A stretch of 38,947 nucleotides of DNA from contig CAIYNX010000251.1 in the NCBI GenBank assembly GCA_903927645.1, forward strand, positions 1-38,947. The letters run 5' to 3'. Each line of letters begins with the position of its first letter. Position 1 is the first letter of the stretch. Below the pieces are notes generated by a model that made no database searches, was not told the origin of the DNA, and saw only the letters and a program-made list of their open reading frames with translations. The position numbers were made by a program, and so were the translations under genes. This document shows, piece by piece, positions 6,140-34,301 of the stretch. Source of the stretch: an uncultured Mucilaginibacter sp. (GTDB lineage: Bacteria; Bacteroidota; Bacteroidia; Sphingobacteriales; Sphingobacteriaceae).

Positions 6140-6933
6140 GCAGAAGCTAAAAATTCAAGCACTACCTTATTGAATATTTTTGCTTGTTCCATATTTGGTA
6201 AGTGACCGGCTTCTTCAATTATTTCCAATTTACAGTTTTTTAGGTTTTTTCTCAATTCTTCGGCTTTACTTACAGGAGTAAATTCATCATCAAGACCTAC
6301 AATTACCAGAGTAGGTATAATTATTGTTGGTAGCACTATATTTAAATAATCAATTCGCTCAGACCTTGCTCTTAATGCAATAGCGGCTCCAATTGCAGAA
6401 GTTTCTTTCATCATTTTTATGATATGCCCAGCGATTACAGGTTTGCTAATCACATGTTTAGGCATAATCATTTTATAAATCACCTCCTCGGCATAAGCAT
6501 CCATTCCCTCGTTTTCTAAACGATTGGCCATTTTAAGGCGGCTTTGTTTACCTTCGGTGGAGTCTAATCCTGCAAAAGTATCAGCAAAAACCATTGAAAT
6601 AATTCGTTCCGGTGCCTGCCGATAAATCTCCATAATGATTTGTCCTCCCATTGATAATCCGCTAAGATGGAGCTTTTTTATACCTAAAAAATCCATTAAG
6701 CAAAGCATATCTGTAGCGTAATCCTCAAAACTAGTATTCCTGTTAAGAGGTACTTCACTAAAGCCAAAACCGCGAAGATCAGGAGTAATTACTTGAAAAT
6801 GTTTTGAAAAATCCTCAATCTGTAAATCCCATATCGTACGATTAAATGGGTGTCCATGAATTAAGAGTAAGGGTACTCCGCTACCATTAATTTCAAAATT
6901 GATTTCAATACTATTTACCTTAGCTTTTGGCAT
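6136..6933 (-). CDS. Alpha/beta hydrolase (3-oxoadipate enol-lactonase-like)
   Basis: 265-aa cytosolic alpha/beta hydrolase fold protein. Oxyanion region LLLIHGHPF (22-30), nucleophile elbow GLSMGG (92-97, Ser94), acid Asp215/Asp216 in VGLDDEF and His244 in EAGHLP form a complete triad. It resembles enol-lactonase and haloperoxidase-type esterases, but no aromatic-degradation genes lie nearby, so the substrate is unknown. It is 41 bp downstream of the CDGSH gene and may be the last gene of the transcript that starts with the ABC ATPase. Its stop codon shares the TTAA palindrome with the convergent aldolase gene. Confidence 0.85.
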   Translation of the reverse strand: MPKAKVNSIEINFEINGSGVPLLLIHGHPFNRTIWDLQIEDFSKHFQVITPDLRGFGFSEVPLNRNTSFEDYATDMLCLMDFLGIKKLHLSGLSMGGQIIMEIYRQAPERIISMVFADTFAGLDSTEGKQSRLKMANRLENEGMDAYAEEVIYKMIMPKHVISKPVIAGHIIKMMKETSAIGAAIALRARSERIDYLNIVLPTIIIPTLVIVGLDDEFTPVSKAEELRKNLKNCKLEIIEEAGHLPNMEQAKIFNKVVLEFLASA

Positions 6934-6974
6934 AGCTAATAAAGGATAACTTAAATGTTTGAATATTCGGCAAT

Positions 6975-7199
6975 CTAAACTTTACGTGGAGGAAGGTCAA
7001 ACGCTTTAGCATCATGTTCAAAATGACCTTTGTGCGAGCCATCGCAAAATGGCTTGTTTGCTGATAATCCACAACGGCAAATAGAAACAATTGTACGACC
7101 TTGTAAACCATATTCGTTACCTTGCATATCAACAATTTCAAAATCACCTTCTATTTTTACAGAACCATTATTGTTAATGGTAAGCTTTGTTTTCGACAT
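6975..7199 (-). CDS. CDGSH iron-sulfur domain protein
   Basis: Small 74-aa protein with one CDGSH domain. The 3Cys-1His ligand set for a 2Fe-2S cluster is complete: Cys41 and Cys43 in CRCG, then Cys52 and His56 in FCDGSH. There is no membrane anchor or signal peptide, so it is a soluble cytosolic protein of the mitoNEET-like family, probably in redox or iron-sulfur handling; the exact role is unknown for most bacterial members. The short size matches the single-domain bacterial form. It lies between the tesA-like gene (65 bp upstream) and the alpha/beta hydrolase (41 bp downstream) on the same strand, with no hairpin terminator visible in either gap. Confidence 0.88.
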   Translation of the reverse strand: MSKTKLTINNNGSVKIEGDFEIVDMQGNEYGLQGRTIVSICRCGLSANKPFCDGSHKGHFEHDAKAFDLPPRKV

Positions 7200-7264
7200 C
7201 TTTTTAAATTTTAGGCTAAGATAAGGAATGGTAATTTATGAAAGCCATATATTATGAATATGAT

Positions 7265-7951
7265 TTATAATAATCCTTTTAATACAGTCCATACATTACC
7301 TGCAACAATTTTGGCACCTTGGGCAGTAGGGTGTATGCCATCTTTTTGGTTTAAATTCGGGTTTCCGCCTACACCGTTTAAAAGAAACGGAACCAATGCC
7401 ATTTTATTTTTATTGGCGATGGTAGGGAACACGGTTTTAAAATCATTCGCGTAAGCTGCACCCATATTAGGTGGCACCATCATCCCTAAAAGCATCAATT
7501 TAGCATTTGGGTATTTTGATTTCACACTATCAACTATAGCTTGCAGGTTTTTGGAAGTTTCGGTAACTGGGATGCCTCTTAAACCATCATTGGCTCCTAA
7601 CTCCAATACAAAAATATCAGGCTTTTGCTTTAAAACCCAAGCTATCCTTCCTAAACCACCGGCCGTAGTTTCGCCACTTAAACCCGCGTTTACTACTTTA
7701 TAAGGCAATTTTACAGAATCAATAATATGTTGTATCACCCCCGGAAAAGCCTCCGAAACATCATCAAGACCATAGCCTGCAGTAAGACTATCGCCAAAAA
7801 AAAGAATGGTTTTTTGTTGACTTTCCTCAGAAACGGCCGATTTTTCAGTATTGATTTCGCCAGTTGAGCTTTGTTTTTGATTACAACTCGCAATAAATAT
7901 TACGGCTATTATCGAAGCTGTTTTAAAGATAGATACCTTTTTTAATTCCAT
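7265..7951 (-). CDS. tesA: SGNH/GDSL esterase, TesA-like lipoprotein
   Basis: 228-aa SGNH hydrolase similar to E. coli TesA (thioesterase I/lysophospholipase L1/arylesterase). All four blocks are visible: GDSLTAGYG with Ser55, NAGLSGETT (88-96), ELGANDG with Asn121, and DGIHPT with Asp204 and His207. The N-terminus has a hydrophobic stretch ending in IASC (Cys23), a likely lipobox, so the mature enzyme is probably lipid-anchored in the cell envelope; E. coli TesA is instead a soluble periplasmic protein. A Ser/Glu-rich linker (27-46) follows. The gene is 15 bp downstream of the FtsX-type permease and in the same direction, matching the known ybbA-ybbP-tesA neighbourhood. Physiological substrate unknown. 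Confidence 0.88.
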   Translation of the reverse strand: MELKKVSIFKTASIIAVIFIASCNQKQSSTGEINTEKSAVSEESQQKTILFFGDSLTAGYGLDDVSEAFPGVIQHIIDSVKLPYKVVNAGLSGETTAGGLGRIAWVLKQKPDIFVLELGANDGLRGIPVTETSKNLQAIVDSVKSKYPNAKLMLLGMMVPPNMGAAYANDFKTVFPTIANKNKMALVPFLLNGVGGNPNLNQKDGIHPTAQGAKIVAGNVWTVLKGLL

Positions 7952-17129: not shown

Positions 17130-17549
17130 TTATATGGTATAATGTGCCACTACATCTTCGGGTACTTTAGCACTTCGTCCGGTTTTTATATCAATCATGG
17201 TATAATCAAACCAACCATCACAACATATTTTATTGGTTTTTTTGTTGGTAATTGAAAATTTAACCCTACAGCCTTTATCATCAATTAATTCAATCCCCGT
17301 TTTTACTATAAAATAATCGCCCATCCCTAGGGCGCGTTTATAATCCACATAAGCTGTTCTTACCACCCAACCAAAACCACGTTCAATAAATTTCTCCATG
17401 GCCATGCCATAGCAACGTTCCATTTGATCATACCTGGCAGCAAGCACATAATCAAAATATTTACTGTTATGAACATGGTGGAACATATCAATGTCATCGG
17501 GGCGAACTCTAAATTCCGTTTCGAAGGTAGCGTAACTAATATCACTCAT
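17130..17549 (-). CDS. Acyl-CoA thioesterase, hotdog fold (4HBT/YbgC-like)
   Basis: 139-aa hotdog protein of the 4-hydroxybenzoyl-CoA thioesterase type. The N-terminal active-site stretch RPDDIDMFHHVHN (16-28) followed by SKYFDYVLAAR carries the D-x-D-x-x-x-H pattern and the helix start of the family. It should hydrolyse short or medium acyl-CoA thioesters in the cytosol; whether it prefers free CoA or ACP esters is not readable. It stands alone, convergent with the ABC membrane gene. A well-formed promoter lies immediately upstream and would give an mRNA with almost no leader. Confidence 0.88.
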   Translation of the reverse strand: MSDISYATFETEFRVRPDDIDMFHHVHNSKYFDYVLAARYDQMERCYGMAMEKFIERGFGWVVRTAYVDYKRALGMGDYFIVKTGIELIDDKGCRVKFSITNKKTNKICCDGWFDYTMIDIKTGRSAKVPEDVVAHYTI

Positions 17550-17553
17550 GCTG

Positions 17554-17583
17554 CAAATATAGTGCGAACATTAAATAGGGCAA
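17554..17583 (-). promoter_or_regulatory. Promoter of the thioesterase gene, near-leaderless
   Basis: On the minus strand TTG (17581-17583), a 19-bp spacer and TATATTTG (17554-17561) match the Bacteroidota TTTG-N19/20-TAnnTTTG promoter. Only 4 bp separate the -7 element from the ATG at 17549, so transcription should begin at or beside the start codon. Confidence 0.6.
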
Positions 17584-17701
17584 TACCTTTCCAAGTATTT
17601 AAAAAAATTTAATAAAAAAATTAGGCGATTAAATATATTGAACTTAAGAGGTACAAGATTAGTTTTATAATGAAAGTAAATAATGAAACAAAACATTTCT
17701 A

Positions 17702-19183
17702 TTAACTTTTAATTCTATTTAAACCAGCCTTTGCCCCATCATCAATACTGTTTTGATAACCATGGCGAGGCATGTCCAATGCTTGTTTGTAGTAATATTT
17801 TGCTTTGTAAAAGTCTTTTTTTGATTCATAAATGTGCCCAATATTTAAGGCAGCATTAGCCGAATAATAATAGCTACTTGTTTTACCCAAATTTATTGCT
17901 TTCTGATAATTTGCAATAGCATTGTTCCAATTGTTCATTTTATCATATAACCTACCAAGCCTATAATAATATTCAATTTTATCTCTCAATAATTTGAGGT
18001 TATTTACTTCAATGCCATTAATTATCAATATCGCTTTATCATAATAAGCTCCGTCAAAAAGTAATCTAGCCTTCAATAAATCAATATCAGGTTTTGTGTC
18101 TGATGCCTCTGTTAAAGCTTGTATATCCCTCTCATCATGTGCATAACCTTTTTCCTTCACTAATTTTAAGTAGTAAATATATTTATTAATATTATCATTT
18201 ATTAAGTAAAAATAGGCTATCCTTAGGTAAGCATCTTTAATTAAATTAGTTCCTTTAAAATCATTAATAAATTTGAGTAAATAAACCTGTGCATCTTCAT
18301 TTAAATGGTTTAGTGTGCAATTTCCTAAAATATAGTCTAATATGGGAAGTTTAATATATTGATCTCCAAAAGTATTTTCTTTCAAAAAATTGATAGCATC
18401 ATCGTTGTGGCCGCACTTGGCGGCAATGTGTGCCTGCAAAAAAGTTTTTAGTAAACTACTATTATCTACAGAAGCTAATAATGTTATTAATTTATTATAG
18501 GACTCATATTTATTTTGTTGATCAACGGTAATTGTACATATAAAAAATACCAGTTCGTCATTATAAAAACCATACTGAGAATGTTTGATGTTGGCGGTTA
18601 AGGTTTCTAACTGATTTATACCTGTTTCTGTATTTCCTGTCATACCTAAAAATTTAGAAATCCCCTTTAGGCTTTCTGGTATAGCTCCAAAAATTACGTT
18701 TACCATAGCAATTCCTTTTTGGTTAAGTATAAATCCAGGAAATTTCTTGGCGTTTTCCTTAAAAAGAGAATTTGCTTTTTTTGCATCAATTGCTGATGAA
18801 AGGTAATCGCCAAACTTTGATTTTAATAATGACCATTGTAAGTAAACCTCCGCCTGGCTGTATAAAAAAAAAGGTGAATTTTGGTTATTACCCGCTAATA
18901 AACTAAGTCTAACAGATTTGTTTTCCGACCATTTTTCGTAGTCTATATTACTTTCTGATGCCAAAAGGCTAAAGTAATCCACATAATTCTCGAGTAATGG
19001 TATAATCCCATTTGTGGGATTTTGTTGTTTTTCTTTCAGGATTAATAATTTAGCCTCAGGAATTTTAAGACTTAAGATACTTTTGTAGGCGGTTATACAA
19101 TTATGATTATAAGTAAACTCGGCCTTGGCAGAAAACTGACAGAACGTAATAAACAAAGTAAGCAAAAATTGTATTTTGCGCAT
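17702..19183 (-). CDS. Secreted TPR-repeat protein of unknown function
   Basis: 493 aa with an N-terminal signal peptide (hydrophobic 4-16, cleavage probably after SAKA, residue 21). The rest is helical and repeat-like; two clear tetratricopeptide repeats lie near the C-terminus (about 404-437, with LGRLYDKMNNWNNAIANYQKA, and about 440-475, with ALNIGHIYESKKDFYKA). Earlier parts look like degenerate helical repeats. It is probably a periplasmic scaffold for protein-protein contacts. No enzymatic motif was seen. It is single on the minus strand, divergent from the Sfp-type transferase gene, so the neighbours do not define its job. Confidence 0.75.
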   Translation of the reverse strand: MRKIQFLLTLFITFCQFSAKAEFTYNHNCITAYKSILSLKIPEAKLLILKEKQQNPTNGIIPLLENYVDYFSLLASESNIDYEKWSENKSVRLSLLAGNNQNSPFFLYSQAEVYLQWSLLKSKFGDYLSSAIDAKKANSLFKENAKKFPGFILNQKGIAMVNVIFGAIPESLKGISKFLGMTGNTETGINQLETLTANIKHSQYGFYNDELVFFICTITVDQQNKYESYNKLITLLASVDNSSLLKTFLQAHIAAKCGHNDDAINFLKENTFGDQYIKLPILDYILGNCTLNHLNEDAQVYLLKFINDFKGTNLIKDAYLRIAYFYLINDNINKYIYYLKLVKEKGYAHDERDIQALTEASDTKPDIDLLKARLLFDGAYYDKAILIINGIEVNNLKLLRDKIEYYYRLGRLYDKMNNWNNAIANYQKAINLGKTSSYYYSANAALNIGHIYESKKDFYKAKYYYKQALDMPRHGYQNSIDDGAKAGLNRIKS

Positions 19184-19187
19184 ATGG

Positions 19188-19195
19188 CAAATATA
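19188..19195 (-). promoter_or_regulatory. Candidate -7 element of the TPR gene promoter, near-leaderless
   Basis: Minus-strand TATATTTG fits TAnnTTTG exactly and ends 4 bp before the ATG at 19183, the same spacing as at the thioesterase gene. No convincing -33 element was found. Confidence 0.4.
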
Positions 19196-19294
19196 TTAAA
19201 ACCATAACCTTTTACTGAAATAGTATTAAGCTTTTGGAATAGTAAATGCTTTTATTTTAGGCCCTAAAAAGTTACCAGTCAAGATTTAAATTTT

Positions 19295-20050
19295 ATGGAG
19301 CAAATAAAAATCACCAATCACACCTTATCCAATGTAAATTGGGAAAATGCTCAAATTTGCTCCTTTTTAATGTTAGGTCAAATTGATGTTTGGAGAATTG
19401 AAATAAACGCTAACGAGAAACGATTAATTCAATTTACCTCAATTATCGAAAATAGAGAGTTTATCATAGCTAACCAACACTTAAAGACCTCGGATAAAAA
19501 TCGATATTTATTGAGCAGAGTAGCGCTTCGATTGGTATTGAGTAAATATCTTCTTAAAAATCCAGAATTGTTTTCATTTGGGAATGATTTAAATAATAAA
19601 CCATTTCTTTTAAGTACCAATGGAGACGAAATAAAATTCAATATATCTTATGCCAAAGATTATATTTTGATTGCAGTTTCATTAACCGAAGTAGGAGTTG
19701 ATGCAGAATACATAGATCCAATATTTGACTTCAATGATATATTAACCGATTTTTTTGCAATAGATGAGAAAAATTATATTGCTGAAACTAACTCAAATAA
19801 ACGTTTCTTTACTTCATGGACAAAAAAGGAGGCACTGGCAAAAGCCATTGGTATAGGGATTTTAGGGCCAATAAATCAATTTCCTATATTAAATGGCGAT
19901 ACTTTTGTGAATAGCGAAATTTTAAATACCACAAATAACTGGATAATACACAGTTTTTATGTTACAAATACACACGTAGGTAGCGTTGCAAGAATAGCAA
20001 ACCAACAACCAATTGCTTTTTGGGACTTTGATTTGAATCTTTTTATTTAA
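19295..20050 (+). CDS. 4'-phosphopantetheinyl transferase, Sfp type
   Basis: 251-aa Sfp/Gsp-type PPTase. The two family signatures are present: GVDAEYI (134-140), with the Mg-binding Asp and Glu, and FFTSWTKKEALAKAIG (171-186), with the W-x-K-E-A-x-x-K core. The upstream block NKPFL...FNISYA (101-120) replaces the usual SHS with SYA. It would move phosphopantetheine from CoA to a carrier-protein Ser. It stands alone, convergent with glpF and sharing the TTAA stop with it. No NRPS or PKS gene is in the window; a second, AcpS-type transferase is encoded at 30149-30550. Confidence 0.9.
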   Translation: MEQIKITNHTLSNVNWENAQICSFLMLGQIDVWRIEINANEKRLIQFTSIIENREFIIANQHLKTSDKNRYLLSRVALRLVLSKYLLKNPELFSFGNDLNNKPFLLSTNGDEIKFNISYAKDYILIAVSLTEVGVDAEYIDPIFDFNDILTDFFAIDEKNYIAETNSNKRFFTSWTKKEALAKAIGIGILGPINQFPILNGDTFVNSEILNTTNNWIIHSFYVTNTHVGSVARIANQQPIAFWDFDLNLFI

Positions 20051-28119: not shown

Positions 28120-28195
28120 CTTTTTTTTGTTTTGGCCCGCTTGCATCTTTAGGGCGCGCCGGATTTATATGTGTATGTAAATTTTTTTCAAATGT

Positions 28196-28227
28196 AAAAA
28201 GCCATCTCCAGTTTGGGATGGCTTTTT
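28196..28227 (-). terminator. Terminator/attenuator between rpsO and pnp
   Basis: AAAAAGCCATC (28196-28206) pairs with GATGGCTTTTT (28217-28227), an 11-bp stem with a 10-nt loop and a T run on the minus strand. It begins 19 bp past the rpsO stop and 76 bp before the pnp start, so pnp is reached by read-through or by its own unseen promoter. Confidence 0.88.
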
Positions 28228-28245
28228 AAATAATTTTAATAGCTT

Positions 28246-28683: not shown

Positions 28684-29334
28684 TTAAGGTTTAAGCAATC
28701 TTAGAGTTTTATCCAATGAAGCTGCATGATGCTTGTTAACTTTCTGTTTCAATGATTCAAAATCAAATTGATGATTGGTACCACAATCTAAAAAGTTGAA
28801 ATAAATGGAAGGTTTATTATTTTCAAAATACTCCAAAATATTGCTACACCATATTAATTGGCAATTTCCATTTGTTCGTGTAGTAATCTCGTACAAACCA
28901 TCCATAAAATGAATATTACGCACATGACATGACTCAAGGTTACCTTGTGGAAAGTAAATTAAAACATTACCTGATTCTTTTAGCAATTCGGCTGCGTAAG
29001 TTAAACTCTCATCAATTGAACGTTTACCAGGATCAATAGAAAATGAACCAGCATATTTTAGCCACCAATTTTTTTCCATTTGTTTTTTAACGCTCATGGT
29101 ATACAAGCCTTTTATTTTTTGTTTTTTATTCAACCATTTAAAACATAAATAATAGGCAAAAAAACCATCAATAAAACCAAAATGGTTACACATTAGTATG
29201 TATGAGTGATTTGGAATTAGGTTTATATCATTGTTAAAAACTAATTTATTTAACCTCTTTTTAAAAAACCACATCAAAAATAAGGCCACATACCTAATCA
29301 AATTTATGGAAACTGGTTTTGCCTTGATGATCAT
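28684..29334 (-). CDS. Lysophospholipid acyltransferase family protein (PlsC-like)
   Basis: 216-aa acyltransferase of the LPLAT/PlsC superfamily. The catalytic HX4D motif is NHFGFID (50-56; His51, Asp56), and the substrate-binding FPEGTRS block appears as FPQGNLES (128-135). A hydrophobic N-terminal segment (13-24) suggests membrane attachment. It would move an acyl chain from an ACP or CoA thioester to an acceptor; the altered FPQGNLES block means the acceptor need not be lysophosphatidate. It is last in the eight-gene fatty-acid-like operon, starting in a 4-bp ATGA overlap with the hydrolase gene, so it probably places the chain made by the upstream enzymes. Confidence 0.85.
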   Translation of the reverse strand: MIIKAKPVSINLIRYVALFLMWFFKKRLNKLVFNNDINLIPNHSYILMCNHFGFIDGFFAYYLCFKWLNKKQKIKGLYTMSVKKQMEKNWWLKYAGSFSIDPGKRSIDESLTYAAELLKESGNVLIYFPQGNLESCHVRNIHFMDGLYEITTRTNGNCQLIWCSNILEYFENNKPSIYFNFLDCGTNHQFDFESLKQKVNKHHAASLDKTLRLLKP

Positions 29335-30152
29335 TTTAACACATTTGTTAATTGTTGAACAAAACTTTTTTTTATCATTTCATGGCCTTCATCCAAAATT
29401 ATCAATTGTGCATTTTTTAAATTATTAATAAAACGCAAACCATACTTTGGTGGATAGGCCTTGTCGCGTTTTCCGAAAATAAATACACTCTTAATATTTT
29501 TTTGGTTTAAAACACCTTTTAATTGTTTTTTATCAGTCTCAAAAAAACGCAAATATACAAAGCAAGCGTAACAATTAAATCTTAGTTCGGGTGTGCCAAT
29601 TTCATTAAATAATATCTGGTAAGCTTCCTGGTCAATTATATTTAATTTTCTTAAAAACTTTAAAAAGCTAAAGAGGGCATTGCTATTTAAAGCCAATTGT
29701 TTAATAATTGAGTTACCGATTTTATATTTACTAAAAAACTTTAGCAATACACCAGGATGCAAACAGGATGGAGCAGCTACTATATATTCATCTACCAATT
29801 CACCTAATTGTTCCGTAACTACTGTTGCATAATGGGTCCCCATTGAATACCCAATAACAGAAAATCTATTAATTGATTCAAATTTGCAAAACTCCAGAAT
29901 TAATGTTGCAAAATCTTTCTTGGTAATACCCATTTCAACAGCCGACAATTCTTGGTTCTTTAATTTCGTTTCCTTATGAAAGAAAAGATCGAAACCATAA
30001 AAAGTATACTGATCTCCTAAGGTTGTTTCCAAAACTTTAAATTGCTTGCCATGCATTCCATAGCCATGAAAACAAAGCATAATTTTCGGACCGCCACCAT
30101 ATTTGTAATAATGAAGGTTAACTAATTTATTTTCAAAATAGTGCTGGGTCAT
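29331..30152 (-). CDS. Alpha/beta hydrolase of the fatty-acid-like operon
   Basis: 273-aa alpha/beta hydrolase. Oxyanion stretch LCFHGYGMHG (26-35), nucleophile elbow GYSMG (101-105, Ser103), Asp230 in FGKRDKAYP and His257 in DEGHEM complete a triad. Cap region (about 125-200) is rich in hydrophobic residues, compatible with a lipid-like substrate. It overlaps both neighbours by 4 bp, the PPTase gene before and the acyltransferase gene after. I infer a thioesterase or esterase acting on the acyl-ACP product, or a proof-reading hydrolase; the sequence alone does not show which. Confidence 0.83.
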   Translation of the reverse strand: MTQHYFENKLVNLHYYKYGGGPKIMLCFHGYGMHGKQFKVLETTLGDQYTFYGFDLFFHKETKLKNQELSAVEMGITKKDFATLILEFCKFESINRFSVIGYSMGTHYATVVTEQLGELVDEYIVAAPSCLHPGVLLKFFSKYKIGNSIIKQLALNSNALFSFLKFLRKLNIIDQEAYQILFNEIGTPELRFNCYACFVYLRFFETDKKQLKGVLNQKNIKSVFIFGKRDKAYPPKYGLRFINNLKNAQLIILDEGHEMIKKSFVQQLTNVLK

Positions 30153-30550
30153 AATTTGTGTTCAATTAAAGCAATGGCCCATGCATAATCACCATCGTGC
30201 GATATGGTTAAACTAATATTAGGTACAATAGTATCAATATGAAGTTTAACTTTTGGCTTGCCAGCAATATTCTCCCGTAAAATTTCAATTTTCTTCCAAA
30301 CAATAGGAATTTCATGAATTTGTTTAAAAGCTTTGTATACTGCTTCTTTTGCAGAAAATGTACTGGCATATCTTAACATTGGTTGGTCAAATTGCTCGCA
30401 ATAGGCAATTTCATTTTCTGTATATACTTTTAATTTAAAAAGGTCTGAAAATGATTCACTAAAGAATGGTAAATAAACAAGATCATTACCAATTACAAAT
30501 TTTTGAATATTTGATATTGCTAATATTGATATTTCCAACTCATTCTTCAT
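30149..30550 (-). CDS. AcpS-type 4'-phosphopantetheinyl transferase
   Basis: 133 aa from the ATG at 30550; the frame can also open with GTG at 30562. Numbered from the ATG: GNDLVY (21-26, Mg ligand Asp23) and FSAKEAVYKAF (65-75, Glu69) are the two AcpS signatures, followed by GKPKV and a C-terminal LTISHDGDYAWAIAL strand typical of the family. It would load phosphopantetheine on the Ser of the carrier protein encoded three genes upstream in the same operon. The start overlaps the end of the enoyl reductase gene by 11 bp. A housekeeping AcpS may also exist elsewhere in the genome. Confidence 0.87.
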   Translation of the reverse strand: MKNELEISILAISNIQKFVIGNDLVYLPFFSESFSDLFKLKVYTENEIAYCEQFDQPMLRYASTFSAKEAVYKAFKQIHEIPIVWKKIEILRENIAGKPKVKLHIDTIVPNISLTISHDGDYAWAIALIEHKL

Positions 30551-31352
30551 CTTTAGATACACCCATTATGTTAAAACCACCATCTACAAAATGTATATTT
30601 CCGGTAACTTTTTTTGATAGATCAGAAAAATAATACAAGGAGGTATTTGCTACATCGTCGGCACTAATATTACCTAGTGGTGCTGTAAACTTGCCAATTT
30701 TACGTAGTTTGCGAATACCCGTTACAGCACCTGAAGAAGTTGTAAGTACTAATCCTGCTGAAATAGCATTTACTCTTATGCACTCCTCCCGAAGGAAATG
30801 AGCAAGATAGATTACTATATTTTCGAGCGCTGCTTTTATAATTGACATTCCCGCATAATCCGGAAAAACCTTTTGAGAGGCATTATATGTTAGTGTTAAA
30901 ATGGAGGCGTCTTTGGTTAGATACGGTTTTGCTACTCTGCAAACACGTATTAATGAATAAGCGCTAATATTGAATGAATCCATCAAATCATCAAACGGTA
31001 TTTCCAAATAGGAAGAAGGAGGTTCATTACTGCTAGGGAGACTGTGGCACATTACCTTTTGGTTACCAAACGCAATTCCATGAAGTATATAGTTGATGGC
31101 TCCTATTTTATGATGAATTGCTGCAATAAAATCATTTATTTCGTGTTCATTTCTAATATCCACTTGTGCTGAAAGGGAGGCGTCCATACCGGCTTTTTCC
31201 ATCAAAAAATGAACTTCATCTTTGGTTTCATCAACATAACTAATAGCAACCTTACATCCAGATTGGTGCAATTTCAAGGCAATGGCAAATGCCAATGAAC
31301 TTTCGTTCCTTACACCAAAAACTAGAGCAACTTTATTGTTATTATTAATCAT
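30540..31352 (-). CDS. FabI-like enoyl-ACP reductase
   Basis: 270-aa short-chain dehydrogenase with the layout of FabI rather than FabG. The nucleotide-binding start VALVFGVRNESSLAFAIA has the loose G-x5-S-x-A form of FabI. The active site Y-x9-Y-x6-K is exact: Tyr156, Tyr166 and Lys173 (LTYNASQKVFPDY, then AGMSIIK), the same spacing as E. coli FabI (146, 156, 163). A long insert (about 100-120, SLPSSNEPPSS) lies before it. It should reduce the trans-2-enoyl-ACP made by the operon's dehydratase, so the chain is probably saturated. It overlaps the ketosynthase stop by 1 bp (TAATG). Confidence 0.85.
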   Translation of the reverse strand: MINNNNKVALVFGVRNESSLAFAIALKLHQSGCKVAISYVDETKDEVHFLMEKAGMDASLSAQVDIRNEHEINDFIAAIHHKIGAINYILHGIAFGNQKVMCHSLPSSNEPPSSYLEIPFDDLMDSFNISAYSLIRVCRVAKPYLTKDASILTLTYNASQKVFPDYAGMSIIKAALENIVIYLAHFLREECIRVNAISAGLVLTTSSGAVTGIRKLRKIGKFTAPLGNISADDVANTSLYYFSDLSKKVTGNIHFVDGGFNIMGVSKDEE

Positions 31353-32704
31353 TAAATATCTCTTGATATTGAAATTGCACTATTTGTACCACCAAAACCA
31401 TAATTAAGGCAGGTTACCGTATTTACTTCTTTAACCAAACTTTTTTGAGGAATTAAATCACGGTAAGCAGCCATCGGCTTTAATGGTCCAACCCATCCAG
31501 GTTCTGTTTGAAAAGGCTCTAATTCTGTATTCAGGTTTATCGAGTTTAAACAAGGTATTACCATTTGTTCTTTCAACATCAACAATGATGCAATAAACTC
31601 GACCGAACCAGCAGCCCCCAGCATGTGTCCAAACTGCGATTTTGGTGCCGAAATATGGAAACCATCCTCTCCCAAGACATCCACTACGCTAAATAGCTCT
31701 ATAGGGTCGCCTGCATGCGTGGAGGTACCATGTACCTTTACAACATCAGGTTTCTTACCACTTTCAGCCAATAACCCTTGCCATAATCTTTTTTGCCCGC
31801 TAAACGATGGGTAAAACATATCGCTATCGCCATCGCCGTTATTAAAATAACCATCAATAATTGCTATTATAGTTGCCCCTCTGGCTTTGGCCATCTCATA
31901 TTCTTCCAGTGCTACAATTCCACCACCAAATGAACACACAAAACCATTTCTGTTGATATCAAATGGTCTTGAGCTTTCTGATGCACTGAACCCCCGACTT
32001 AATACTTGCATGCCATCAAAGCCAATAAAAGTTTCGAGTGAGGTTCCTTCAACGCCTCCTGCAATTACCCTGTCCTGTAAGCCAAATTTTATAAGACGGT
32101 ATGCATATCCAATATTGCCTAATCCAGTAGCACAAGCCGAACCAATTGATTCACAAATGCCTTTATTTTTTATCAAACAGGTAACATTTGCAGCTTCTCG
32201 AAAAACCATGGTACGGTCAACAGTATGTGCACCAGCCACTCTTGTTTTTTTCCCGAGCTCGTAAAAATTATGCCATGCCGATCTTAATATTACATTTCCG
32301 GCTCCTCCTGAACCTATGATTACGCCAGTTTTTTCTGATTCAGTTTCAGGTACACTCCAACCAGCCATTTTAATGGCATCCATACTTCCAAGCATAGCCC
32401 AAATGCTTCCAATATCAGCAGTAGCCAAATTTGTTTCTGGTATCCTATTTAATTTATCGATGTAAGTTTCCGGATAATTATGCTCCATTAATGTAGAGTA
32501 AATGGTATCCAAACCCATTTCGGCATCGGTTATATAACCTGAAACAGTTGAACGTATGTTTTTACCAAACGCTACTGCCTCATCCCATTCTCTGATTAAA
32601 CTTTGGTTCGAAAAAATTTTGCGGCAAAAATCGGACAAATTGGTACAAGTAGGGAAAGCACCACCCATACCAACAACCGCAACTTTTCTTCCGGGTAATT
32701 CCAT
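31352..32704 (-). CDS. Beta-ketoacyl-ACP synthase, FabB-like
   Basis: 450-aa thiolase-fold condensing enzyme. Catalytic Cys191 in GSACATG, His325 in VHGTSTHAGD and His360 in KSQFGHMLGAAG make the Cys-His-His triad of elongating KAS I/II, with Lys355 and the C-terminal NYGFGGTN motif present. The segment after GACATG and the short loop before KSQFGH resemble FabB more than FabF. It joins malonyl-ACP to an acyl-ACP; there is no FabH-type starter enzyme in the operon. A chain-length-factor-like partner is absent, so it probably acts as a homodimer. It begins 2 bp after the carrier protein stop. Confidence 0.9.
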   Translation of the reverse strand: MELPGRKVAVVGMGGAFPTCTNLSDFCRKIFSNQSLIREWDEAVAFGKNIRSTVSGYITDAEMGLDTIYSTLMEHNYPETYIDKLNRIPETNLATADIGSIWAMLGSMDAIKMAGWSVPETESEKTGVIIGSGGAGNVILRSAWHNFYELGKKTRVAGAHTVDRTMVFREAANVTCLIKNKGICESIGSACATGLGNIGYAYRLIKFGLQDRVIAGGVEGTSLETFIGFDGMQVLSRGFSASESSRPFDINRNGFVCSFGGGIVALEEYEMAKARGATIIAIIDGYFNNGDGDSDMFYPSFSGQKRLWQGLLAESGKKPDVVKVHGTSTHAGDPIELFSVVDVLGEDGFHISAPKSQFGHMLGAAGSVEFIASLLMLKEQMVIPCLNSINLNTELEPFQTEPGWVGPLKPMAAYRDLIPQKSLVKEVNTVTCLNYGFGGTNSAISISRDI

Positions 32705-32706
32705 TA

Positions 32707-32970
32707 TTAAGCCTTATCCTTTGATTTTAAAATCAAATCAACCACATTTTTTACTTTTGATCCTAAATTATCGATATCATCATCTTCAAACTCCACATCA
32801 AATTTCTGTTCGGTTTTTGCTACAATATTTATCATCTCTGTTGATGGTGTGTTCAAATCTTTAATAAAATCGGTTTCTTCTGTAATAACAGATAATTTAT
32901 CAGGATTAATTGTTCTTACTGTTTTTAAAATTTCAACCAAACCTTCAATTATTTCTTTTCTTTCCATCAT
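32707..32970 (-). CDS. Atypical acyl carrier protein
   Basis: 87-aa acidic, helical protein of carrier-protein size. The modified Ser lies in LNTPSTEMINIV (39-50): Ser43 is kept, but the usual Asp-Ser-Leu is Pro-Ser-Thr. Surrounding pattern DFIKDLN-x2-S-x2-M, then FDVEFEDDDIDNLGSKVKNVVDLI, matches helix 2, helix 3 and helix 4 of ACPs. Its likely partners are the neighbouring ketosynthase, dehydratase and AcpS-type transferase. The altered motif suggests it is not interchangeable with the housekeeping AcpP. It starts in a 4-bp ATGA overlap with the dehydratase gene (two adjacent ATGs; either could serve). Confidence 0.8.
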   Translation of the reverse strand: MMERKEIIEGLVEILKTVRTINPDKLSVITEETDFIKDLNTPSTEMINIVAKTEQKFDVEFEDDDIDNLGSKVKNVVDLILKSKDKA

Positions 32971-33530
32971 TGTACTTTATATTTATTCAAAAGCTCTTTT
33001 TTGATTGATCGAGCTGTAATGTCCTTAAGTTCAGCAATTAAGGTGAAATCTTCCCTTAAGTCATAATTCAAAAGACGTTCCTCGTTAAAATTACTAAAAT
33101 AAAGGTCTAAATCTAAATTCTGTGGAGCTTTATAAATTCTTCCATCACATACCATTTGCCTAAACTTATAGAATTTTATATAACCAATATTCACTAAAAC
33201 ATCACCTTTTTCTAGGTAATTATGAAATATTACCTCACCAATGCTGATAAACCGTGGAAAAAATCGATTAGGAAGCTCGTAGGGCGTAATGCCTAATTTT
33301 TTACATTCCAAAAACACAATGCCCGAACCTGTAGTTGATTGAGCGAATGATTCAATTTGGTCAACACCTCTAAATATATTAAAGTGGTCTTCTAGATCTC
33401 TGTCGGTAGGCGTATAACTTGCTACAATGCCAACTTCCGGTTCATGCCAATGATATTGGTTTACCAAACGTTTGGTTGGGCCATGTAGTACCAAAATGTC
33501 TTTTGGGTCTTGTCCAACTAGGCTATCCAT
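32967..33530 (-). CDS. FabZ-like hotdog protein, probable 3-hydroxyacyl-ACP dehydratase
   Basis: 187 aa. The stretch EDHFNIFRGVDQIESFAQSTTG (47-68) resembles the FabZ active site GHF-x-G...P-G-V-L-x-x-E-A-x-A-Q, with His49 and Glu60 in the catalytic positions. The His-to-Glu distance is 11 residues, against 14 in E. coli FabZ, so the loop that carries the PGxP turn is shortened. The protein is longer than FabZ (about 150 aa), with an extra C-terminal segment. It is placed between the ketoreductase (27 bp upstream) and the carrier protein genes, where a dehydratase is expected. A non-catalytic or different hotdog thioester enzyme remains possible. Confidence 0.6.
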   Translation of the reverse strand: MDSLVGQDPKDILVLHGPTKRLVNQYHWHEPEVGIVASYTPTDRDLEDHFNIFRGVDQIESFAQSTTGSGIVFLECKKLGITPYELPNRFFPRFISIGEVIFHNYLEKGDVLVNIGYIKFYKFRQMVCDGRIYKAPQNLDLDLYFSNFNEERLLNYDLREDFTLIAELKDITARSIKKELLNKYKVQ

Positions 33531-33557
33531 ATATTAAAATCATTTTGCCACTATATT

Positions 33558-34280
33558 TCATTTCAATCCACCGTTAATTTGAATATTGGTACCATTAATA
33601 TACGAAGCATTTTCCGAAAGCAAAAATTCAACCAAATTAGCAACATCATCAGGTTTACCAAACCGCTTTGAAGGAATGGCGCTTAAATATTTATCTCTTA
33701 CTTCTTGGCTTAATGAGCCAGTCATATCACTTTCAATAAATCCGGGAGAAATACTTAGCACTCTGATATTATGCAGATCGTATAGTGCGGCGGCCTCTTG
33801 TGCCAATGACTTTGATAAAGCAACTAATCCGGCTTTAGTGGCAGCATAAACAGATTGAAAGGCATTGCCACCATCGCCACTTATGGAACTAATATTTATA
33901 ATAACCCCCGTTTTATTTTGTTGAAAAATTTTCATTGCCGTTTTGCAAATAAAAATCGGTGCTCTCAAATTTACATTGAGCATGGTATCAATTTCGATTT
34001 CAGGTTGATAATTTATTGGTTTATCAAAGGTTATTCCAGCGTTGTTGATCACTCCATAAAGGGAATCACCATGATCCTTTTTTAGTTTTTTGCAAAATGC
34101 CTCCAATTGACTTTGATCTGAAAAATCAGCATATAAGAAATTACTATCAGGTATTTTGCTCGAAAAACTACCTTCATTGGTAGCGTGAAGTATTAAATCG
34201 TAAATGGGTGCGAGCTTATTGGCAATCGCCAAGCCCAAACCTTTACTAGCCCCAGTAATTAATACTTTTCTTTTTTTCAT
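33558..34280 (-). CDS. fabG: 3-oxoacyl-ACP reductase (FabG-like SDR)
   Basis: 240-aa classical short-chain dehydrogenase. Cofactor site GASKGLG (10-16), NNAG (79-82), catalytic Ser132, Tyr145 and Lys149 in the S-x12-Y-x3-K arrangement (NISSISG, then YAATK), and the C-terminal INGTNIQINGG characteristic of FabG. It reduces 3-oxoacyl-ACP with NADPH. It is the first gene of the eight-gene operon at 28684-34280, read from its own promoter in the short gap behind the rseP terminator. FabG-like SDRs are broad, but the ketosynthase, carrier and dehydratase neighbours support this role. Confidence 0.88.
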   Translation of the reverse strand: MKKRKVLITGASKGLGLAIANKLAPIYDLILHATNEGSFSSKIPDSNFLYADFSDQSQLEAFCKKLKKDHGDSLYGVINNAGITFDKPINYQPEIEIDTMLNVNLRAPIFICKTAMKIFQQNKTGVIINISSISGDGGNAFQSVYAATKAGLVALSKSLAQEAAALYDLHNIRVLSISPGFIESDMTGSLSQEVRDKYLSAIPSKRFGKPDDVANLVEFLLSENASYINGTNIQINGGLK

Positions 34281-34293
34281 GAAGGATGCATTT

Positions 34294-34301
34294 CAAAATT
34301 A
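34294..34301 (-). promoter_or_regulatory. Candidate -7 element of the fatty-acid-like operon
   Basis: Minus-strand TAATTTTG matches TAnnTTTG, 13 bp before the fabG-like ATG and just behind the rseP terminator, where the operon's promoter must lie. No -33 element is seen at normal spacing. Confidence 0.35.

Follow-up and report, generated by a model that had tools for sequence, protein, structure and literature searches.

An eight-gene operon of Mucilaginibacter predicted to encode an accessory type II fatty-acid system with its own carrier protein and a terminal lipid acyltransferase

A 38,947-nucleotide stretch of DNA from an uncultured Mucilaginibacter sp. (contig CAIYNX010000251.1 of assembly GCA_903927645.1), referred to here as the window, carries an operon of eight minus-strand genes at positions 28684-34280. 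Sequence comparisons within its own genome and among its relatives indicate that this operon is an accessory fatty-acid system, distinct from the housekeeping one. In the reading we favor, and consider fairly probable, it encodes a type II fatty-acid synthase (FAS) that builds a reduced acyl chain, carried on a dedicated acyl carrier protein (ACP), from which the acyltransferase encoded by the last gene moves the chain to a lipid.

All eight open reading frames lie where the original prediction had placed them, in the order ketoreductase (KR), dehydratase (HD), ACP, ketosynthase (KS), enoyl reductase (ER), phosphopantetheinyl transferase (PPT), alpha/beta hydrolase (ABH), and acyltransferase (AT), and all are read from the minus strand. 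KR, a FabG-type 3-oxoacyl-ACP reductase of 240 residues (33558-34280; PF13561 and PF00106 over cut-off), is followed by the 187-residue HD, assigned by its predicted fold to the FabZ-type dehydratases with His49 and Glu60 (32967-33530), the dedicated ACP with Ser43 (32707-32970; NCBIfam ACP model, below cut-off), and KS, an elongating ketosynthase of 450 residues that resembles both KAS I and KAS II (31352-32704; PF00109 and PF02801). Next come the 270-residue ER, a FabI-type enoyl-ACP reductase whose best NCBIfam matches are FabI models, below their cut-offs (30540-31352), PPT, an AcpS-type enzyme listed with a GTG start (30149-30562; PF01648 and TIGR00556 over cut-off), ABH, possibly an accessory thioesterase (29331-30152; PF00561), and finally AT, a predicted lipid acyltransferase of PlsC/GPAT fold with an HX4D motif (28684-29334; PF01553). 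The junctions originally reported, 27, -4, +2, -1, -11, -4, and -4 bp, are reproduced from the open reading frame coordinates, provided that the -11 between ER and PPT is counted from an ATG start of PPT, the listed GTG lying 12 bases upstream. The operon had also been called self-contained, which is true of its full reductive set and of its own ACP and phosphopantetheinyl transferase (PPTase), but no FabD, FabH, or acetyl-CoA carboxylase gene is among the eight according to the open reading frame list, Pfam, and NCBIfam.

The same set recurs well beyond this window. Scanning genome contigs with an HD alignment gave 81 relatives, from which 80 loci were kept, and 60 of these have the complete set of eight in identical order (with KS in two pieces in L135), bearing out the claim that the genes form a single operon. 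Because the gene upstream of KR varies, with 39 family-and-strand classes in 74 loci when unclustered genes are counted singly, so constant an order exceeds chance. Around HD in same-genus relatives, all eight genes are present in 14 of 15 cases and ABH is missing from the other. Median junctions across complete loci run from -11 to +3.5 bp, although scripted gene starts were taken as the first ATG, GTG, or TTG, so that overlaps in these statistics are possibly overstated; the KS-ER junction exceeds 30 bp or overlaps by more than 60 in 13 of 60 loci, and the PPT-ABH junction does likewise in 10 of 60. The 20 incomplete loci include six distant ones without ABH or AT homologues (L137, L139, and L140-L143), and the operon is incomplete at contig ends in L076, L078, L113, L130, and L136. 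AT is kept in the absence of ABH in 5 of 66 AT-bearing loci (L085, L111, L126, L132, and L133). The shortfall in L091 is an artefact of an overlap filter that hid PPT, and the ACP of L141 was merged in the count.

Catalytic residues had been described as complete in KS, ER, KR, and PPTase, and all of them were found in the window and proved invariant. Counting over copies from the 80 loci plus the window, and only where the residue was covered, the KS cysteine (C191) is present in 79/79 and both histidines (H325 and H360) in 78/78, S132, Y145, and K149 of KR in 77/77 each, Y156, Y166, and K173 of ER in 74/74 each, and the PPTase aspartate and glutamate (D23 and E69, or D27 and E73 if numbered from the GTG start) in 74/74. 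The remaining proteins are equally constant: Ser43 of ACP in 79/79, the histidine and glutamate of HD in 81/81, the Ser103-Asp230-His257 triad of ABH in 63/63 for serine and aspartate and 62/62 for histidine, and H51 and D56 of AT in 67/67.

At the level of families, KR, KS, ER, PPTase, ABH, and AT pass their Pfam cut-offs, and KS, KR, ER, and ACP fall under the cut-off of every housekeeping NCBIfam model listed (for KR and ER, among the best 25 models). KR scores 201 bits against TIGR01830 (FabG; cut-off 297.75) and KS 217.6 bits against the fabF model TIGR03150 (cut-off 493.75). ACP reaches 14.6 bits in Pfam, where the cut-off is 20.8, and matches an NCBIfam ACP model with an E value of 1.8e-13, under the cut-off of that model. 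The usual ACP motif around the serine is DSL; the operon ACP reads PSTE, and acpP elsewhere in the same genome reads ADSLDT.

Two of the proteins were assigned through predicted structures. HD has no Pfam match up to an E value of 10, including the FabA-like domain PF07977, and none in NCBIfam, and by sequence it finds weak FabZ matches in the PDB (best E value, 0.0049). Its AlphaFold2 model, built from 43 aligned sequences with a predicted local distance difference test score (pLDDT) of 92.2, has Helicobacter pylori FabZ as its best Foldseek match (E value, 1.5e-7) and superimposes on FabZ in VIA with a Z score of 18.2 and a root mean square deviation of 1.9 Å over 145 residues. On this model, HD is a FabZ-fold dehydratase, a hotdog fold with catalytic histidine and glutamate. 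His49 and Glu60 are 11 residues apart, versus 14 in FabZ, so the loop between them is shorter in HD. AT scores 29.1 bits against PF01553 (cut-off, 23) and has a single, unrelated match in the PDB by sequence (E value, 0.64). Its model (pLDDT, 85.2) matches PlsC in Foldseek (E value, 2.2e-5), and the top ranks in VIA are GPAT1 (Z score, 14.1; 3.3 Å; 208 residues aligned) and PlsC (Z score, 13.4; 4.1 Å; 186 aligned). Modeling thus identifies AT as a lipid acyltransferase of the PlsC/GPAT fold, in agreement with the acyltransferase originally proposed for the last gene.

Whether such an operon could simply be the housekeeping synthase is answered by the rest of the genome and by its relatives. 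The window assembly, in which the contig is C251, totals 3.74 Mb in 354 contigs and is 88.85% complete. A separate fabF-acpP pair lies on contig C296 (fabF, 586 bits with a cut-off of 493.75; acpP, 138 bits with a cut-off of 92), a FabI homologue is found on C158 (142.8 bits, under the cut-off of that model), and another FabA/FabZ-family domain is on C178. Besides the operon PPTase, the genome encodes three more, of which one lies in the window (19295-20050). Of 100 relatives searched, 17 carry HD: the genome itself, 15 of 60 others of the genus, and G098, a relative at class level. Restricting the set to genomes with completeness of at least 90% and contamination of at most 5% gives 13 of 85. 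With 16 of 61 same-genus genomes as carriers, the operon is therefore dispensable in the genus. A housekeeping role was rejected on the basis of the second fabF and acpP, the FabI homologue, and this patchy distribution.

The inventory of enzymes and their active sites are observations, around which we infer the order of reactions, the length of the chain, which substrate AT uses, and what ABH does. In the proposed pathway, PPT would convert apo-ACP to holo-ACP and so provide a dedicated carrier, with malonyl and starter groups presumably coming from the FabD and FabH-type enzymes of the host cell. KS would then extend the chain, with KR, HD, and ER taking every beta-carbon through complete reduction, so that the resulting acyl-ACP would be saturated or largely reduced. 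From the dedicated carrier, AT would hand the chain on to an acceptor lipid, which is probably a lyso-lipid or an envelope glyco- or aminolipid, while ABH might edit or release misloaded chains. Possession of its own ACP and PPTase would separate the special chain from the bulk phospholipid pool. AT is a likelier end point than ABH because it is retained in the 5 of 66 loci where ABH was lost.

Several points weigh against this reading. The original prediction had taken the lack of any other fabF, fabG, fabI, acpP, and acpS as the mark of a housekeeping system; a further fabF, acpP, FabI homologue, and PPTases exist, but a canonical FabG elsewhere in the genome could not be pinned down. There are 24 matches to short-chain dehydrogenases/reductases, counting the operon KR, the operon ER, and the FabI homologue on C158, and four further members scanned against TIGR01830 scored 149 to 212 bits, all below the cut-off that the operon KR also fails to reach. 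Because none of these four passes, KR may, on the evidence of this genome alone, have a role shared with housekeeping synthesis. In addition, KR was not found beside HD in L092, L095, and L098, the copy in L133 has no ER, and the transferase appears to stand outside the ancient core because six distant loci have no ABH or AT homologue.

These six loci, L137 and L139 from Zobellia and L140-L143, keep KR, HD, ACP, KS, ER, and PPT, and profiles of ABH and AT find no homologue in them, though the L140 operon ends near a contig end. In five of the six, a FabA-like gene lies between KR and HD; PF07977 was matched in both of those tested, and a profile of four such proteins matches FabA chains in the PDB, including Pseudomonas aeruginosa FabA (E value, 2.5e-29). 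Upstream of the operon, L137 has an alpha/beta hydrolase, and L140-L143 have a GNAT protein with weak FeeM or GNAT matches in Pfam, all below cut-offs, and with no PDB chain matched by its alignment up to an E value of 5; these weak matches make it a tentative FeeM-like candidate. Taken together, the six loci suggest a core synthase whose end enzymes can be exchanged.

A bolder version of the proposal, which we regard as possible but rather doubtful, is that the operon represents a mobile plug-in lipid cassette that makes an undescribed class of envelope lipids, with interchangeable terminal enzymes and with a TPR protein serving in export or placement. The terminal enzyme would be a PlsC-type O-acyltransferase in Sphingobacteriaceae and a FeeM-like N-acyltransferase or a hydrolase elsewhere. 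The TPR gene in question lies 9.5 kb from the operon (17702-19183, minus strand) and is co-inherited with it in 15 of 15 same-genus carriers.

If ABH rather than AT completed the pathway, the product would be a free (hydroxy) fatty acid, and AT would serve another step. The ABH triad is conserved in all covered rows, and the hydrolase upstream of the Zobellia L137 operon belongs to the same Pfam family, though it is unmatched by the ABH profile. Five of the 66 loci with AT lack ABH, however, and L076, the only locus with ABH and no AT, stops at a contig end, so we think a free acid unlikely. The acyl group might instead feed a nonribosomal peptide synthetase-polyketide synthase (NRPS-PKS) pathway, given that in 8 of 80 loci (L070, L086, L089, L090, L091, L097, L101, and L115) the next gene after the TPR gene is of NRPS-PKS type and that the window has an Sfp-type PPTase beside its TPR gene that is 37% identical to the Sfp protein of such a cluster in L151 (relative G045). 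The flanks retrieved for the remaining 72 loci, some of which are cut by contig ends, show no NRPS-PKS gene, and the L151 assembly line, the one case read, opens with an adenylation rather than a condensation domain (A-PCP-KS-AT-aminotransferase, then C-A-PCP-TE). We consider this destination quite unlikely.

Just as improbable in our estimate is a FabA/FabB-type branch making cis-unsaturated fatty acids. KAS I chains rank first when a KS profile is searched against the PDB, and a FabA homologue is present in the distant loci; in NCBIfam, however, KS scores for KAS I and KAS II are nearly tied (215.9 and 217.6 bits), and the window operon has only the FabZ-fold dehydratase, the sole other FabA/FabZ-family domain in the genome sitting on a separate contig, within a 494-residue frame on C178. 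Duplication of KS, ER, and ACP functions, together with apparent movement between genera, would also fit a backup FAS that makes the cell tolerant of FabF or FabI inhibitors, but for such a bypass AT, a private PPTase, and a divergent ACP would be superfluous, and no resistance gene is among the eight, which leaves this explanation very unlikely. Least probable is a pigment cluster of the aryl polyene or flexirubin type. KR, dehydratase, ACP, KS, lysophospholipid acyltransferase, and thioesterase families are shared with such clusters (PMC8253772), and KR matches the flexirubin model FlxB with 163 bits, under the cut-off of 340. Against this stand an ER with residues intact in 74/74 copies and a single KS, and none of the eight genes encodes a chain-length factor, an aromatic starter enzyme, an acyl-ACP synthetase, or a transporter.

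Comparison with known systems places the favored reading, an accessory synthase that loads a lipid, among familiar pathways. Housekeeping type II FAS has the same enzyme steps but differs from the window operon, which is a single codirectional cassette with its own PPTase and acyltransferase and a patchy distribution. In rhizobia, NodE, NodF, NodG, and NodA likewise assemble a specialized acyl group on an ACP of their own and deliver it to an acceptor by a dedicated transferase, but this system is not known to include an enoyl reductase or PPTase and its acceptor differs. The same logic governs the acpXL-lpxXL very-long-chain fatty acid cluster of rhizobia and Agrobacterium, where a dedicated ACP, a FabZ-type dehydratase, ketosynthase, and dehydrogenase accompany a terminal lipid acyltransferase that puts the chain on an envelope lipid (PMC11901934, PMC5613085). 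As far as the relevant parts of these sources go, that cluster has two ketosynthases versus one in the window operon, neither an enoyl reductase nor a PPTase is among its six named genes, whereas the window operon has both, and its acyltransferase is annotated as a lipid A lauroyl acyltransferase, in contrast to the PF01553 protein of PlsC/GPAT fold found here. The Escherichia coli aryl polyene cluster likewise combines KR, dehydratase, ACP, ketosynthase, thioesterase, and a lysophospholipid acyltransferase, but the gene table in PMC8253772 lists two 3-hydroxyacyl-ACP dehydratases, three KS genes, and no enoyl reductase, as well as acyl-ACP synthetase, methyltransferase, and transporter genes that the window operon lacks; the enoyl reductase, already invoked in the original prediction to set the operon apart from aryl polyene and flexirubin clusters, thus still does so in this comparison. 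A single ketosynthase, together with an enoyl reductase and a PPTase encoded in the operon, sets it outside both the acpXL-lpxXL and the aryl polyene clusters, although it has part of its logic in common with the latter. Aminolipid synthesis by OlsB/OlsA and SalA, which uses a GNAT N-acyltransferase and a PF01553 O-acyltransferase, shares the PF01553 family with AT of the window operon and a GNAT, weakly FeeM-like, with four distant cassettes; the OlsB/OlsA type sets the GNAT beside the PF01553 gene, whereas the window form has no GNAT among its eight genes and L140-L143 have no AT homologue, and the portion of PMC11631085 at hand mentions no dedicated synthase. Ladderane clusters, to the extent that PMC2649909 details them in the available part, do not match the operon. 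In searches of the open-licence literature, where most listings were confined to the best 8 to 15 papers and subscription journals are mostly absent, no description of a matching eight-gene pathway was found.

Dedicated chains on dedicated carriers underlie both rhizobial lipid A and aryl polyenes, and if Bacteroidota have another such type, one with full reduction, an envelope lipid not yet known would be expected. The constant gene set, the apparent movement between genera, and the swapped end enzymes put direct tests of product and acceptor within reach of cultured type strains, the carriers in culture including Mucilaginibacter frigoritolerans ATCC BAA-1854, M. hurinus, and Pedobacter glucosidilyticus, and the compact eight-gene unit could be of use for heterologous lipid work.

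According to record titles, the loci come from Mucilaginibacter (30), Pedobacter (16), Daejeonella (6), Pseudopedobacter, Sphingobacterium, and Zobellia (2 each), and Desertivirga, Pelobium, Albibacterium, and Taibaiella (1 each), with 18 carrying no genus name; the closest named HD match, 93% identical, is from an uncultured Mucilaginibacter bin. In a phylum-wide sample, HD was found in 3 of 395 genomes and KS (E value, 1e-100) in 3 of 395, the window genome included, and the same KS search within the order of G098 gave 1 of 5. No sister or intermediate KS families were seen in the phylum sample (395) or in the order of G098 (5), few genomes being covered; the searches of sampled genomes together took in fewer than 600 different ones. 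In a KS tree made with a quick method and SH-aLRT support only, nine rows from Daejeonella, Pedobacter, Sphingobacterium, and unnamed Bacteroidetes or Sphingobacteriales join Mucilaginibacter sp. OK283 with support of 99, and two other Daejeonella sequences form a separate pair with support of 100. Because rows of mixed genera group with OK283, the tree suggests that the cassette moved between genera, though a number of these rows come from metagenome bins and could be misnamed. Base composition gives no support for recent transfer: the operon averages 0.409 G+C versus 0.395 in the flanks (66 loci), and in the window the values are 0.342 versus 0.355. Carriage on plasmids was rejected, as no plasmid matched by DNA or by KS protein at an E value of 1e-100, as was carriage by viruses, since HD had no match in viral contigs. 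The Pedobacter planticolens copy (L133), which lacks ER and ABH and sits on a long KS branch, could be a decaying or a specialized form.

The TPR gene is found in 50 of the 80 fetched loci and directly beside the operon in 46 (37 downstream and convergent, 9 upstream). Among the 100 relatives searched, matches of at least 50% identity occur in exactly the 15 same-genus HD carriers, the one in G015, at a contig end, being limited to the last 190 residues. Eleven further same-genus genomes have a TPR relative at only 39-45% identity, and G098, with its distant operon, has one at 31%. A tree sets 51 operon-type rows apart from 16 less similar ones (11 same-genus and 5 class-level, including G098) by one branch with support of 98. 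Of the less similar proteins, 14 of 16 lie beside two conserved gene families, which we take from their sequences to be a Nif3-like and a zinc-ribbon family, one lies beside a single family, and one beside neither. This other locus occurs in operon-free genomes, as well as in G098 on a different contig from the operon, which weakens the idea of the TPR protein as a universal partner, and the gene may be a hitchhiker. In L105 and L135, the operon is beside genes that match the presumed Nif3-like and zinc-ribbon pair in size, the comparison being one of sizes only. By inspection, the N terminus of the TPR protein resembles a signal peptide.

In the window, a 4HBT-type thioesterase gene, the TPR gene, and the Sfp-type PPTase gene are grouped together at 17130-20050. 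Because L151 has its NRPS-PKS pair between the TPR gene and a related Sfp gene, such a pair may have been lost in the lineage of the window. Two NRPS-like frames elsewhere in the window genome, on contigs C315 and C351 (L029 and L030), are 29-33% identical to the TPR-associated NRPS genes.

Other observations concern the sites where operons are found. In Pedobacter insulae (L126), the operon lies between the genes for ribosomal proteins S10 and L3, with TauE and DUF1634 genes before L3; one opposite-strand gene separates S10 from KR (2339-14300 in L126, the only locus in which these genes were tested with Pfam), and L133 resembles this site judging by protein starts. Insertion beside rseP, considered as a simple empty-site comparison, was not borne out by 24 same-genus RseP loci: KR adjoins RseP in two of them (the window genome and G003), two of the 24 end on that side, and the 1.5 kb examined contained no rpsO at any of the 24. 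Within operons, L072, L077, and L081 have two extra genes (about 167 and 152 residues) between PPT and ABH; the L072 pair matches an Xre/MbcA/ParS antitoxin and a RES-domain toxin, and the other two pairs are of the same families. The partial operon of L095 has a BRO-N domain gene between KS and ER (6687-7547).

Upstream of the operon, 13 bp from the KR start, lies a candidate promoter -7 element, TAATTTTG (34294-34301, minus strand), the consensus of this element in Bacteroidota being TANNTTTG. In 40 of 76 loci, the consensus lies no more than 120 bp from KR, versus 121 of 1,520 mononucleotide shuffles; over the whole window it is not enriched (64 occurrences versus 68.5 expected), and a sigma-70 scan, with 33 sites versus 35.1 in shuffles, was uninformative. 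Elsewhere in the window, a 14-pair hairpin followed by a T-rich tail is found on the plus strand at 28195-28228, flanked by genes that we presume from their sequences to be pnp and rpsO.

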